From positions 1 to 64,000 of the forward strand of contig NZ_CAMYIC010000036.1 in the NCBI RefSeq assembly GCF_947258355.1: a stretch of DNA of 64,000 nucleotides, read 5' to 3'. The notes below the pieces were generated by a model. That model was not told the DNA's origin, searched no databases, and saw only the letters and a program-made list of their open reading frames with translations. This document shows positions 31,706 to 36,194 of this stretch, one piece after another; positions within the stretch are counted from its first letter, which is position 1; each line of letters opens with the position of its first letter. Source of the DNA: an uncultured Allomuricauda sp. Its GTDB lineage: Bacteria; Bacteroidota; Bacteroidia; Flavobacteriales; Flavobacteriaceae. The translations under genes were made by a program, and so were the position numbers.

Positions 31706-31880
31706 TTATTCCGTGTGGATACTGAGCGTAGTCGAAGTATGGCTCGTATCTAATCTGTTTGAGATGCTGAAATAAGTTTAGCATGACGTAAGAAGGTCAT
31801 TTCGATATGAGGAGGGTAACGACGATTGAGAAATCTAGTTTCAGATTTCTCACACTTACTTCGCTCGGTTCGAAATGACA
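31706..31880. repeat. Dispersed palindromic repeat, copy 1 (helicase-pdeM gap)
   Basis: The intergenic gap is filled by nested inverted repeats. ATTCCGTG at 31708-31715 and the core GAGCGTAGTCGA at 31724-31735 are shared with other copies. GTCATTTCGA (31796-31805) pairs with TCGAAATGAC (31870-31879), and TGAGAAATCT (31827-31836) with AGATTTCTCA (31843-31852). No gene; the pdeM promoter follows immediately. Confidence 0.8.
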
Positions 31881-31910: not shown

Positions 31911-32543
31911 ATGATCCAAAAAATTAAAATACTAAATCAAGAATTTCAACTCCATCCTTTGGGCGGGCTATTTTGGGAGGGAAAATCACTCTTGCTGATC
32001 AGTGACGTGCATTTGGGGAAGGTGTCCCACTTTAGAAAGTTTGGTGCAGCAGTTCCCAGAAAAGCCATTCACAAAAACTTTCTACTTCTGGATAAAATAG
32101 TGTCCGATTTCGACCCCTTCCAAATCTGTTTTTTGGGCGACCTTTTCCATTCATCCATAAACAAGGAATGGGAATTGTTCGAAAACTGGGTCGCAAAAAC
32201 TCCTGCTGAAATTTTATTGGTAGCAGGCAACCACGACATTATTGCTCCGGAAAAGTTCGAAAAACTGAAAGTTTCCATATTTCCAGAATTAATCATCGAC
32301 TCTTTCTTATTGACCCATCATCCTGAGGAACGCAAAGGCTGCTTTACATTTTGTGGGCATGTTCACCCGTCCATCAAACTCAAAGGTTTTGGCAAGGAAC
32401 GTATAAAACTGCCCTGCTTTTTCAAATCTAAAAGTCAGATGATTCTCCCAGCTTTTGGCCAATTCACAGGAACTCATTCCCTCGACCCCAAGGATTCGGA
32501 CGAGGTTTATGCCATTGTGGAGGACAGTGTTATTAAAGTTTAG
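31911..32543 (+). CDS. pdeM: Ligase-associated DNA endonuclease PdeM (metallophosphoesterase)
   Basis: 210 residues from ATG 31911. Calcineurin-like phosphoesterase with all motifs in order: LISDVHLGKVSHF (D-x-H), FLGDLFHS (GD), VAGNHD (GNHD), LLTHHPE (His) and FCGHVHPSI (GHxH), which bind two metals. The Pseudomonas putida homologue (MPE) is a Mn-dependent single-strand DNA endonuclease encoded in the same type of cluster. The longer frame from 31875 was rejected because a perfect -7 element lies within it. Fourth member of the cluster, separated from the helicase by a palindromic repeat. Confidence 0.9.
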   Translation: MIQKIKILNQEFQLHPLGGLFWEGKSLLLISDVHLGKVSHFRKFGAAVPRKAIHKNFLLLDKIVSDFDPFQICFLGDLFHSSINKEWELFENWVAKTPAEILLVAGNHDIIAPEKFEKLKVSIFPELIIDSFLLTHHPEERKGCFTFCGHVHPSIKLKGFGKERIKLPCFFKSKSQMILPAFGQFTGTHSLDPKDSDEVYAIVEDSVIKV

Positions 32544-32580
32544 ATTCTTCACTTTGCTCAGAATGACATAAGTAAAGACT

Positions 32581-32690
32581 GTCATTCCGTGCGGATGCTG
32601 AGCGTTGGTCATTGAGCGAAGTCGAAATGAGCCGAAGCATAACACGGAATCGCATGAGTGAGACGCTGAAACAAGTTCAGCGTGACGATA
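32581..32690. repeat. Dispersed palindromic repeat, copy 2 (pdeM-mfd gap)
   Basis: ATTCCGTG (32584-32591) is answered by inverted CACGGAAT (32643-32650). The core GAGCGAAGTCGA lies at 32614-32625. ACGCTGAA (32663-32670) pairs with TTCAGCGT (32676-32683) across 5 bp. Shares its modules with copies 1 and 3. No gene; the mfd promoter follows. Confidence 0.8.
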
Positions 32691-32731
32691 AGAAACCCAA
32701 AAAAACATTTTCAGTAAAAGTTTCCGCGGTT

Positions 32732-32739
32732 TATCTTTG
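32732..32739 (+). promoter_or_regulatory. -7 element of mfd
   Basis: TATCTTTG, exact TAnnTTTG match 17 bp before the TTG start of mfd. Confidence 0.6.
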
Positions 32740-32756
32740 CCGCAAAGTTTTTTGGA

Positions 32757-35700
32757 TTGACCAAAACCCCGATTTCCCAACTTTTTGAACAGTCTCCCCA
32801 AATAGGGAAACTGAGGGATACCATTGCCCAAACTCAAGACAGCCCTTCCGGTTCATCAGAAAAAATAAATATCAAAGGGCTTGTAGGCTCCTCGCTTTCC
32901 TTTGTAATTGCTGAAACTTTCAAATCTACCGATGCTCCATTCTTACTGATATTAAATGACAAGGAGGAAGCAGCCTATCATTTGAACGATTTGGAAGAAC
33001 TCCTGGGTGAAAAGGATGTACTTTTTTATCCTGGTAGCTACCGAAGGCCTTATCAAATTGAAGAAACGGACAACGCGAATGTTTTGCTTCGCGCCGAAGT
33101 ACTCAACCGAATAAACTCCAGAAAAAAACCGGCCATCATTGTCACCTATCCCGATGCCCTTTTTGAAAAAGTGGTCACTCGGAAGGAACTGGACAAGAAT
33201 ACCCAAAAGATAAAGTTGGGCGATGAGATTTCGTTGGATTTTTTGAACGAGGTCCTTTTTGAGTATCAGTTCAAACGGGTGGATTTTGTGACCGAACCAG
33301 GGGAGTTTTCGGTGCGAGGGGGTATTGTGGATGTCTTCTCATTCTCGCATGATGAACCCTACCGTATCGAGTTTTTCGGGGATGAAGTGGACAGTATCCG
33401 AACTTTTGATGTGGAGACACAGCTTTCCACGGACAAAGTGAAGAAAATCACCATCATTCCAAACGTAGAAAACAAGTTCACCGAAGAAATACGGGAAAGT
33501 TTCTTAAAATATATTTCGGGCAACACTGTGGTCTTTGCCAAGAATCCCGCTTTAATCTATGATCGCATCGATTCCTTTTTTGAAAAAGCAGAGGAAAGCT
33601 TTGCCAAGTTGAGTGAAGAAATCAAACACGCGAAGCCCAAAGAACTGTTTTTGGATTCAGCTTTGTTAAAAGAGCAGTTGCAGGATTACGTATTCGTTGA
33701 AATTGGAAACTCTTCTGTCACTTCGAGCGGAGTCGAGAAGCAGACAGAAGCATCTCCCTCGACTACGCTCGGGATGACAGCTTCCACAGTCCAGTTCAAC
33801 ACCAAACCCCAACCCTCTTTCAACAAAAAGTTTGACCTACTCATTGAAAACCTCAATGATAATCGGGATGCGGGTTACAGCAATTATATTTTCTGTTCCA
33901 CGGAACAACAGGCCAAGCGTTTTCACGATATTTTTGATGAAGTTGACCAAACGGTCCATTATCAGACTATCATTTTTCCATTGTACCAAGGTTTTGTGGA
34001 CCCGGATTTGAAAATCGCTTGCTATACCGACCATCAAATCTTTGAGCGCTACCACAAGTTCCATTTAAAGAATGGCTATGCCAAAAAACAGGCCATCACC
34101 TTAAAGGAACTCAACAAACTAGAGATTGGGGATTACGTGACCCATATTGACCACGGTATCGGAAAGTTCGGCGGGTTGCAAAAAATTGATGTGGAGGGTA
34201 AAAAACAGGAAGCCATCAAACTGATTTATGGCGACCGGGACATTTTGTATGTCAGCATCCATTCGCTGCACAAAATATCCAAATACAACGGTAAGGACGG
34301 GGCCCCTCCAAAAATCTTCAAACTAGGTTCCGCTGCTTGGAAAAAACTGAAGCAAAAGACCAAGGCCAGGGTCAAAAAAATCGCCTTCGACCTTATTAAA
34401 GTCTACGCCAAACGTCGATTGGAAAAAGGATTCCAATATGCGCCTGATAGTTATCTACAGAACGAATTGGAAGCTTCTTTCCTTTACGAGGACACCCCGG
34501 ACCAAGAAAAGAGTACCCAAGATGTAAAAAAGGACATGGAAAGCGAGAGACCCATGGACAGACTTGTCTGTGGTGACGTAGGGTTTGGGAAAACTGAAGT
34601 TGCCATACGTGCAGCATTCAAGGCGGTGGACAACGGCAAGCAGGTTGCTGTTTTGGTCCCGACTACCATTTTGGCCTTCCAGCATAGCAGAACGTTCAGG
34701 GAACGTTTAAAGGAGATGCCCGTAACGGTGGATTACCTCAACCGATTCCGCACCGCAAAGGAAAAAAAGGATGTTTTGGAGCGCTTGGCCGCTGGCAAAA
34801 TCGACATCATCATAGGGACGCATCAACTAGTGAACAAAAACGTTCAGTTCAAGGATTTGGGCTTATTGATAGTGGACGAGGAACAAAAATTCGGGGTTTC
34901 TGTGAAGGAAAAACTGCGTTCCATCAAAGAAAATGTGGACGTACTCACCTTAACGGCGACACCGATTCCAAGGACACTTCAATTTAGTTTGATGGCCGCG
35001 CGTGACCTATCCGTCATCAATACCCCGCCACCGAACAGGTACCCTATCGAAAGTCAGGTGATCCGGTTGAACGAGGAAATTATCCGAGATGCCATTTCTT
35101 ACGAAATCCAGAGGGGCGGACAGGTCTTCTTTATCCATAACAGAATTGAAAACATCAAAGAGGTAGCAGGAATGCTCCAACGCTTGGTTCCCGATGCAAA
35201 AATTGGCATCGGTCATGGCCAAATGGAAGGAAAAAAACTGGAGTCCTTGATGCTATCCTTCATGAACGGTGAGTTTGATGTATTGGTTTCAACCACTATC
35301 ATTGAAAGTGGGTTGGATGTCACCAATGCCAATACCATTTTTATTCACAACGCCAACAACTTTGGATTGAGCGACCTTCATCAAATGCGGGGACGTGTGG
35401 GTCGAAGCAATAAAAAGGCTTTCTGTTACTTTATTACCCCACCCTACGAAGTGATGACACCCGAAGCGCGTAAACGAATCGAGGCTTTGGAACAATTCAC
35501 AGACTTGGGAAGTGGCTTTAACATCGCCATGAAGGATTTGGAAATCCGTGGTGCGGGTGACCTATTGGGAGGTGAACAAAGTGGTTTCATCAATGAAATT
35601 GGATTCGAGACCTATCAAAAAATATTGTCCGAAGCGATTGATGAACTTAAGGAAAATGAGTTCAAGGAATTGTATGAGGAAGTTGAGGGCAATAAGGAGA

Positions 35701-36194
35701 AAGTGTATGTCAAAGAGATGCAGCTCGACACGGATTTTGAACTGCTCTTCCCTGATGACTACATCAACAATATCACCGAGCGCTTAAACCTGTACACCCA
35801 ATTGAACGATGTGGAGGATGAGGAAGGCCTTCAAAAGTTTGAAGCACAACTGGTAGACCGTTTTGGGGAGTTACCAGAACCAGCAGTTGACTTGATGAAC
35901 TCGGTTCGTATTAAATGGATTGCCACCCATATTGGTCTGGAAAAAGTTATCATGAAAAAAGGCAAATTCATCGGTTACTTTATTGCTGACCAACAATCCA
36001 GTTTTTACCAAAGTGCCGTATTTACCCAAATATTGCAATATGCGCAAACACATCCGCAATTGGTAAAACTCAAGGAAAAGCAGACCCGAAATGGACTCCG
36101 GTTGTTGTTGGTGTTTGATAAGATCACCAGCGTGGACAAGGCGTTGAAAGCACTTCTGCCTTTCACACCTCAAAAAGAGGATATTTCTGTTTAA
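32757..36194 (+). CDS. mfd: Transcription-repair coupling factor Mfd with an in-frame repeat insertion
   Basis: Removes RNA polymerase stalled at DNA lesions and recruits UvrA. 1145 residues: a UvrB-like N-terminus (about 1-300), RNA polymerase-interacting CarD-like domain (starting about residue 450, LEIGDYVTHIDHGIGKFGG), SF2 translocase with CGDVGFGKTEVA (K612), DEEQ at 707-710, TLTATPIPRTL, QMRGRVGRS, and the TRCF C-terminal domain (about 980-1090). Start TTG at 32757. Residues about 319-343 are encoded by a palindromic repeat of the family found in the flanking gaps (see the repeat at 33715-33780). They fall in a linker before the sequence KKFDLLIENLND, so the enzyme is probably functional. 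Reading frame is intact. Confidence 0.95.
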   Translation: MTKTPISQLFEQSPQIGKLRDTIAQTQDSPSGSSEKINIKGLVGSSLSFVIAETFKSTDAPFLLILNDKEEAAYHLNDLEELLGEKDVLFYPGSYRRPYQIEETDNANVLLRAEVLNRINSRKKPAIIVTYPDALFEKVVTRKELDKNTQKIKLGDEISLDFLNEVLFEYQFKRVDFVTEPGEFSVRGGIVDVFSFSHDEPYRIEFFGDEVDSIRTFDVETQLSTDKVKKITIIPNVENKFTEEIRESFLKYISGNTVVFAKNPALIYDRIDSFFEKAEESFAKLSEEIKHAKPKELFLDSALLKEQLQDYVFVEIGNSSVTSSGVEKQTEASPSTTLGMTASTVQFNTKPQPSFNKKFDLLIENLNDNRDAGYSNYIFCSTEQQAKRFHDIFDEVDQTVHYQTIIFPLYQGFVDPDLKIACYTDHQIFERYHKFHLKNGYAKKQAITLKELNKLEIGDYVTHIDHGIGKFGGLQKIDVEGKKQEAIKLIYGDRDILYVSIHSLHKISKYNGKDGAPPKIFKLGSAAWKKLKQKTKARVKKIAFDLIKVYAKRRLEKGFQYAPDSYLQNELEASFLYEDTPDQEKSTQDVKKDMESERPMDRLVCGDVGFGKTEVAIRAAFKAVDNGKQVAVLVPTTILAFQHSRTFRERLKEMPVTVDYLNRFRTAKEKKDVLERLAAGKIDIIIGTHQLVNKNVQFKDLGLLIVDEEQKFGVSVKEKLRSIKENVDVLTLTATPIPRTLQFSLMAARDLSVINTPPPNRYPIESQVIRLNEEIIRDAISYEIQRGGQVFFIHNRIENIKEVAGMLQRLVPDAKIGIGHGQMEGKKLESLMLSFMNGEFDVLVSTTIIESGLDVTNANTIFIHNANNFGLSDLHQMRGRVGRSNKKAFCYFITPPYEVMTPEARKRIEALEQFTDLGSGFNIAMKDLEIRGAGDLLGGEQSGFINEIGFETYQKILSEAIDELKENEFKELYEEVEGNKEKVYVKEMQLDTDFELLFPDDYINNITERLNLYTQLNDVEDEEGLQKFEAQLVDRFGELPEPAVDLMNSVRIKWIATHIGLEKVIMKKGKFIGYFIADQQSSFYQSAVFTQILQYAQTHPQLVKLKEKQTRNGLRLLLVFDKITSVDKALKALLPFTPQKEDISV
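33715..33780 (+). repeat. Palindromic repeat copy 3, inserted in frame within mfd
   Basis: A 23-bp left arm (33715-33737) and right arm (33758-33780) are imperfect inverted repeats with a 20-bp centre. The left arm contains GAGCGGAGTCGA (33725-33736). The right arm contains TCGACTACGCTC (33759-33770), the exact reverse complement of the 12-bp core of copy 1 in the helicase-pdeM gap. The element supplies about 22 codons (TSSGVEKQTEASPSTTLGMT) without a stop. Confidence 0.88.

Follow-up and report, generated by a model that had tools for sequence, protein, structure and literature searches.

The window, which is the whole stretch of DNA analyzed here (64,000 nt), belongs to a 63-contig assembly that is 95.6% complete, and the best named matches are Allomuricauda/Flagellimonas (Muricauda) genomes. 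It contains an open frame matched by the TIGR00580 mfd profile at 983 bits against a cut-off of 800. The gene, two of its linkers and the palindromic repeats in and near it are as follows.

31716-31741, plus strand: helicase-pdeM gap, related palindrome (core GAGCGTAGTCGA)
32594-32640, plus strand: pdeM-mfd gap, nested repeat; by reading, an outer hairpin whose core encloses a type-C-like hairpin (about 32605-32629)
32662-32687, plus strand: pdeM-mfd gap, palindrome of type B with a minus-strand CGTC tag, two mismatches to the 17-bp pattern
32757-36194, plus strand: mfd, transcription-repair coupling factor, 1145 aa, open frame with TTG start
32823-32870, plus strand: Mfd linker 2 (about residues 23-38), a repeat site in relatives
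33708-33779, plus strand: Mfd linker 1 (residues 318-341), a recurrent in-frame palindrome site
33715-33737, plus strand: left member of the type-A hairpin pair, TGTCA-tagged, core at 33723-33736
33758-33780, minus strand: right hairpin of the type-A pair in the opposite orientation, core at 33759-33772

The two arms in linker 1, each of 23 nt, are 83% complementary and spaced by 20 nt. They form the imperfect inverted repeat that an earlier note on this DNA had described, with correct letters and coordinates, within an open mfd frame of 1145 codons. The palindrome spans about 22 codons in frame, and we infer from the open frame that the segment is translated as part of Mfd. The type-A stretch is predicted to fold at -34 kcal/mol compared with a shuffle mean of -23.1 (z -3.42), and 1 of 200 shuffles folds equally well. 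Residues 318-341 show a pLDDT below 50 between predicted strands in an AlphaFold model, which is weak as a whole (mean pLDDT 51.6) and usable solely as local evidence on the loop. The solved structure of E. coli Mfd aligns on both sides, and residues 271-407 of the query stay unaligned. No repeat core was found by the core scan in linker 2 of the source genome.

The 12-bp core occurs four times in the window at up to one mismatch (shuffle mean 0.06). Type E gives only two-mismatch matches there. Beyond the hairpin with the shared core, the helicase-pdeM gap also holds a longer inverted-repeat-like element at 31797-31880 (TCATTTCG...CGAAATGA). A minus-strand ORF of 176 aa (32307-32837) overlaps the pdeM-mfd gap; its peptides HAELVSAS and VILSKVKNL have a repeat-coded look, and the ORF is probably not a gene.

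The earlier note had taken the core for a dispersed repeat, and this is borne out by 65 matches to TCGAGCGNAGTCGA at up to one mismatch in the 3.30 Mb of the source genome, with none for the reversed control. Reading of the list places 42 of the 65 cores in 21 plus-then-minus (head-to-head) pairs like the mfd pair. The consensus of these copies is TGTCA-xy-TCGAGCGCAGTCGA-GA-y'x'-T, with none outside it, and the tag letters T, G, T, and C are kept in 94, 94, 95, and 94% of the copies. The two variable stem pairs are Watson-Crick in 62/65 and 64/65 copies (shuffle means 22.4 and 18.2), using three and four pair types respectively; this covariation of the stems argues for hairpin elements rather than a protein motif. 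The type-A stem is bulged, its first pair being Watson-Crick in 40/65 copies and its second pair variable, and type B by reading has an 8-bp stem and a 5-nt loop. The core, read directly, is stop-free in all six frames.

The repeat is mostly intergenic, as the note had held, and nine of the 65 cores lie inside conserved protein genes: Mfd and MetH contain two each, while ArgS, TrpF, PrmC, a serine hydrolase and a DNA-glycosylase-like protein (in its C-terminal part) contain one each. Seven further cores fall in 5' extensions of long open frames, before the likely start, and were not counted as coding. The note had proposed a search of coding genes for the core; mfd proves to be one of several hosts in the source genome and not the only one. 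Both variable stem pairs are Watson-Crick in all nine listed coding copies, and the outermost stem pair is broken in four of them. Across the 60 genomes of the genus, the A core is found in 58, B in 45, C in 32 and F in 22, every control giving 0; types A, B, and C are dispersed in this sense, and type E was recognised inside loops only. A search with the Y1_Tnp profile returned no match in the source genome (95.6% complete) and a match in 10 of the 60 genus genomes.

Mfd sequences were collected from 110 loci (some species twice) and 28 further stretches of genus genomes. The genus set comprises one genome per species, and 57 of the 60 were counted; G014 and G030 were set aside for lack of a usable mfd, and G018 for its frameshifts. 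A fixed scan found the repeat core in linker 1 of 46/57 species (3,996 bp) and elsewhere in mfd, linker 2 apart, in 4/57 species (186,357 bp), and 20 codon shuffles of mfd gave 1-10 core matches per whole set. The scan cut-offs were chosen after the sequences had been viewed, so the controls (rest of the gene, codon shuffles) carry more weight than the raw count. The "elsewhere" match of G015 is, by reading, the left hairpin of linker 1 lying outside the set boundary. The other three of the four species are G048, G034, and G051 (L146, L162, and L168), in which a repeat pair or remnant is present in a shared third Mfd loop, after HDIFDD.AST. Linker 2 contains the core in 13 of the 54 species in which it could be delimited (not G026, G024 or G051), with peptides such as VTSSAVEKS, PLDSARGD, and HPEPVEGG (L160, L129, L126, and others).

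Between the flanks ...VEIG and FNTKPQP..., linker 1 holds a repeat of type A (VTSSGVEKQ...STALGMT), type B (ETLKQVQGD; palindrome CCTGAAACAAGTTCAGG), type C (TPLS...VTERSRSD) or type E (HAEPVEA...HFDELSVT), or remnants of these, and some species show no repeat at all. The frames are open through linker 1 in all 57 species. The segment is not conserved across the family, a conservation that would have spoken against the earlier note. Its expectation that close relatives lack the segment does not hold as worded: many of them carry a different repeat at the site, including G049, the closest in mfd, which has a different palindrome. Outside the genus, the core is present in the loop at 8/62 loci and in the rest of mfd at 2/62, and the B palindrome of Salinimicrobium catena (L100) is opposite in orientation to those of S. 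xinjiangense and S. sediminis. In the single-contig genome G018 (L160), mfd is frameshifted twice, perhaps by read errors, and the loop is still of type C.

An mfd tree was built without the linker, and six repeat classes were assigned by reading, decayed copies included, to 51 species, six untypable ones of the 57 being left out of the class statistics. The closest relative has the same class in 20 of the 51 typed species. Parsimony on the tree requires 25 class changes for these species, whereas 500 label shuffles average 30.6 and reach 25 at the lowest. The source genome (G000, type A) adjoins G049 (type B), their mfd being 93.5% alike and that of the next relative 87.4%. Sister pairs of unlike class include G001 (A)/G005 (B) and G008 (A)/G035 (C), both with support 100, and G011 (A)/G038 (C) with support 95. 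Over the remainder of mfd, species of one class resemble each other slightly more than label shuffles allow (3 of 2000 reach the value), and repeat class is to some degree not free of descent.

Sharing of details within classes bears on the same question. The tail GCAGACAGA is common to 8/12 type-A linkers and the spacer CAAAAT to 8/14 type-C linkers, which points to few origins and later exchange; the tail mirrors the leading TCTGTC and could be part of the element, but the other listed copies in the own genome are without it. The 96 bp left of the linker are identical in G000 and G013 though the two are 87.4% alike overall, and this tract plainly suggests an exchange between species. The sister of G000 is G049 in the mfd and prmC trees and G022 in those of argS and trpF, a conflict which indicates that genes move between these species. 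No general excess of flank identity was seen in same-class pairs, and a recombination scan of 1,425 divergent pairs found no excess of near-identical 99-bp tracts at the linker. Allelic exchange as the sole cause was rejected for want of a general signal in these two tests, the G000-G013 tract and the tree conflicts remaining.

Seven genes of the source genome contain inner copies; five were compared genus-wide and all five vary. The core was counted in the loops of TrpF (21/30), PrmC (22/30), MetH (10/26, four unread loci of 30 being left out), and ArgS (22/30), and in the flanking coding segments in 5/232. The MetH loop is short and repeat-free in 8 of the 20 loci read (ten left out), and a full pair is present in others. 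PrmC carries pairs of type C, one A repeat on its own, or a tandem repeat unrelated to these; the last (like KSEVRSQKSEV) was noticed at loci L249, L254-L257, L259, L260, and L262, in species lacking the palindrome. TrpF shows A, B pairs, another kind or no repeat. The ArgS loop is constant in length to within one codon and has type A in either orientation. The idea that the ArgS copy is an insertion in the source genome was discarded, the loop of relatives being equal or nearly equal in length and differing in orientation.

The B pair of trpF forms a 64-bp palindromic cassette that starts with CGTCA and mostly ends with TGACG. It stands in one orientation in G041, G029, G044, G047, and G027, and in the other in G011, G059, G035, G015, and G039. 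All 25 cross-orientation pairs fit better when one is inverted (72-89% alike, versus 62-72% directly), and same-orientation pairs are 77-98% alike directly. These ten come from 30 loci, the remainder being eight type A, G028 and G004, and decayed, mixed, other-kind or repeat-free loops; in the B pairs of G028 and G004 both orientations fit about equally, or one only slightly better. Four orientation changes are needed among these ten on the trpF tree and likewise on the mfd tree, the sisters G027 and G039 (support 100) being opposite. The stems of the trpF hairpins covary.

Opposite orientations recur in other hosts. In prmC, the second hairpin of G002 is by reading the reverse complement of that of G000 with one change, within flanks of 92.9% (left) and 90.9% (right) likeness across 99 nt, and the second hairpin of G017 is likewise inverted; in the left flank G049 resembles G013 more than it does G002 or G000. 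ArgS needs six orientation changes for 30 species, and the sisters G008 and G035 are opposite on the gene's own flank tree. Nesting is seen with the 21-bp palindrome F, whose flanks were taken from 30 loci of 61 matches. Of the 29 copies read, 18 sit exactly between GAGCG and NAGTCGA, the apex of A/C hairpins, three nearly so and eight elsewhere. G017 shows this insertion point within mfd and, in decayed form, within prmC; G018 has it in prmC and G045 in metH.

We propose, with a probability of about 0.72, that head-to-head hairpin repeats, REP-like and tagged with TGTC/CGTC, landed in a disordered loop of Mfd, were read as protein and were later exchanged. The repeats would disperse through the genome by a putative route, and selection would retain coding copies only in flexible loops and with an uninterrupted frame. 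A resident palindrome may then destabilise its site, and the repeat there may be swapped for another kind (at least once via a short interspecies transfer), reversed, or nested at its apex, the frame being kept throughout. Hairpin-driven rearrangement at sites where selection tolerates extra residues is the putative mechanism that we favor. The repeat peptide is most likely a tolerated, presumably neutral passenger in the disordered loop. The opposite orientations probably arose by inversion in place, and they could also reflect replacement by another copy or an old transfer between species. A bolder extension, which we regard as unlikely, is that loops of housekeeping enzymes are active exchange sites where a working machinery flips, swaps, and nests cassettes in frame, re-tagging core proteins in living populations; such machinery may be invertase-like, a hairpin-targeting transposase, or replication-based.

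It is possible, at somewhat under even odds, that each kind entered the loop once or a few times long ago and that the present scatter reflects homologous transfer of gene pieces, new insertion and inversion being rare. The shared type-A tail and type-C spacer fit such a history, as do the identical tract of G000 and G013, set against the 93.5% overall likeness of G000 and G049, and the conflicting gene trees. However, a history of this kind is opposed by same-class pairs that lack excess flank identity, by the absence of a near-identical tract excess at the linker among the 1,425 divergent pairs, and by sisters that are opposite in trpF (G027/G039) and argS (G008/G035) on their own flank trees. 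A function of the repeat that selection maintains, whether as an mRNA hairpin or through a peptide tuning Mfd, would agree with the presence of the core in 46 of 57 genus members, the intact variable stem pairs of the nine coding copies and the covarying trpF stems. We consider it quite unlikely, as sequence, length, orientation, and kind all vary and some species are repeat-free; moreover, the stems match across all 65 copies, which are mostly intergenic, and stem matching is therefore a property of the element and not of the host gene.

Mobilisation as a classical REPIN, by a RAYT (Y1) transposase resident in the genome, would explain a palindromic, tagged element with 42 of 65 cores in head-to-head pairs, but this seems rather improbable in view of the lack of a Y1_Tnp match in the source genome and the contrast between 10 of 60 genus genomes with such a match and 58 of 60 with the A core. 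The chance of an assembly or annotation artefact is practically negligible: the source assembly has 63 contigs, mfd of G018 is frameshifted and one stop within the match was flagged in each of G025 and G023, yet the loop frames are open in 57 species, G025 (1135 codons) and G023 (1177 codons) among them.

Coding sites serve here as natural recorders, as their conserved flanks fix the position while the element changes kind or orientation, and sisters with a turned or swapped cassette, together with a repeatable nesting point, make the mechanisms directly testable. The variation also suggests that core enzymes including Mfd accept turnover of unrelated short loop peptides, and it gives a warning that repeats may encode some short "proteins" and variable linkers of Bacteroidota. 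The spread and persistence of REPs that have no known transposase still call for an explanation, and the accessible text of PMC3733652 offers none for CGTC REPs.

That paper (Di Nocera et al. 2013), in the portion available, describes CGTC and GTAG REPs; several species have intragenic copies, and genes for replication and repair contain many of these. It includes CGTC REPs in Bacteroidetes (G. forsetii is named), finds no transposase association for CGTC REPs, classes RPE-4 and RPE-6 as CGTC REPs, and shows that the recB genes of two Xanthomonas species carry unlike REPs at nearly one position. The available text of PMC12306157 states that REPs rarely overlap protein-coding regions. The repeats studied here are present in many dispersed short palindromic copies, mainly extragenic, as is general for REPs. 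They resemble the CGTC REPs, as far as the accessible text of PMC3733652 goes, in the TGTC/CGTC tag, the hairpin, the mostly head-to-head pairing and the intragenic copies. A dedicated transposase is lacking for the CGTC REPs of that text, and the source genome gave no Y1_Tnp match here. The CGTC REPs are described in that text with an 8-9 bp stem, a 4-5 nt loop, A-T at the first two stem positions and a CCA-like tail; in type A the stem is bulged and its second pair varies. The earlier note had looked to Rickettsia for precedent and held a Bacteroidota example in Mfd to be notable; the Mfd case is real, and in-frame REPs outside Rickettsia had already been published (PMC3733652, in the part available). 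Genus-wide turnover at one loop, opposite orientations in sisters, and apex nesting were not found in the accessible text of PMC3733652, whose main text has no occurrence of mfd. In-frame REPs are already known from the available text of that paper. The literature search, with little coverage of subscription journals, gave among the matches listed no report that coding REPs of Bacteroidota turn over or are inverted across a genus, or that they stand in opposite orientations in core genes; plastid microinversions were among the subjects listed. A text search for the repeat peptide words gave, among the matches listed, only a chance agreement with the shortest word.

Three other systems invite comparison. 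RPE insertions are stable; they share with the present repeats the in-frame position of palindromes in protein genes (here Mfd, MetH, TrpF, PrmC, and ArgS), and they belong to another phylum; the likeness noted here is one of coding position. REPIN/RAYT systems disperse paired palindromes as units, and the pairing is common to both, whereas no Y1 match was found in the source genome. Intragenic invertons hold a coding stretch between inverted repeats that is present in both orientations; here, in contrast, the two orientations are found between species, the repeats are dispersed palindromes, and the sites are loops of housekeeping enzymes.
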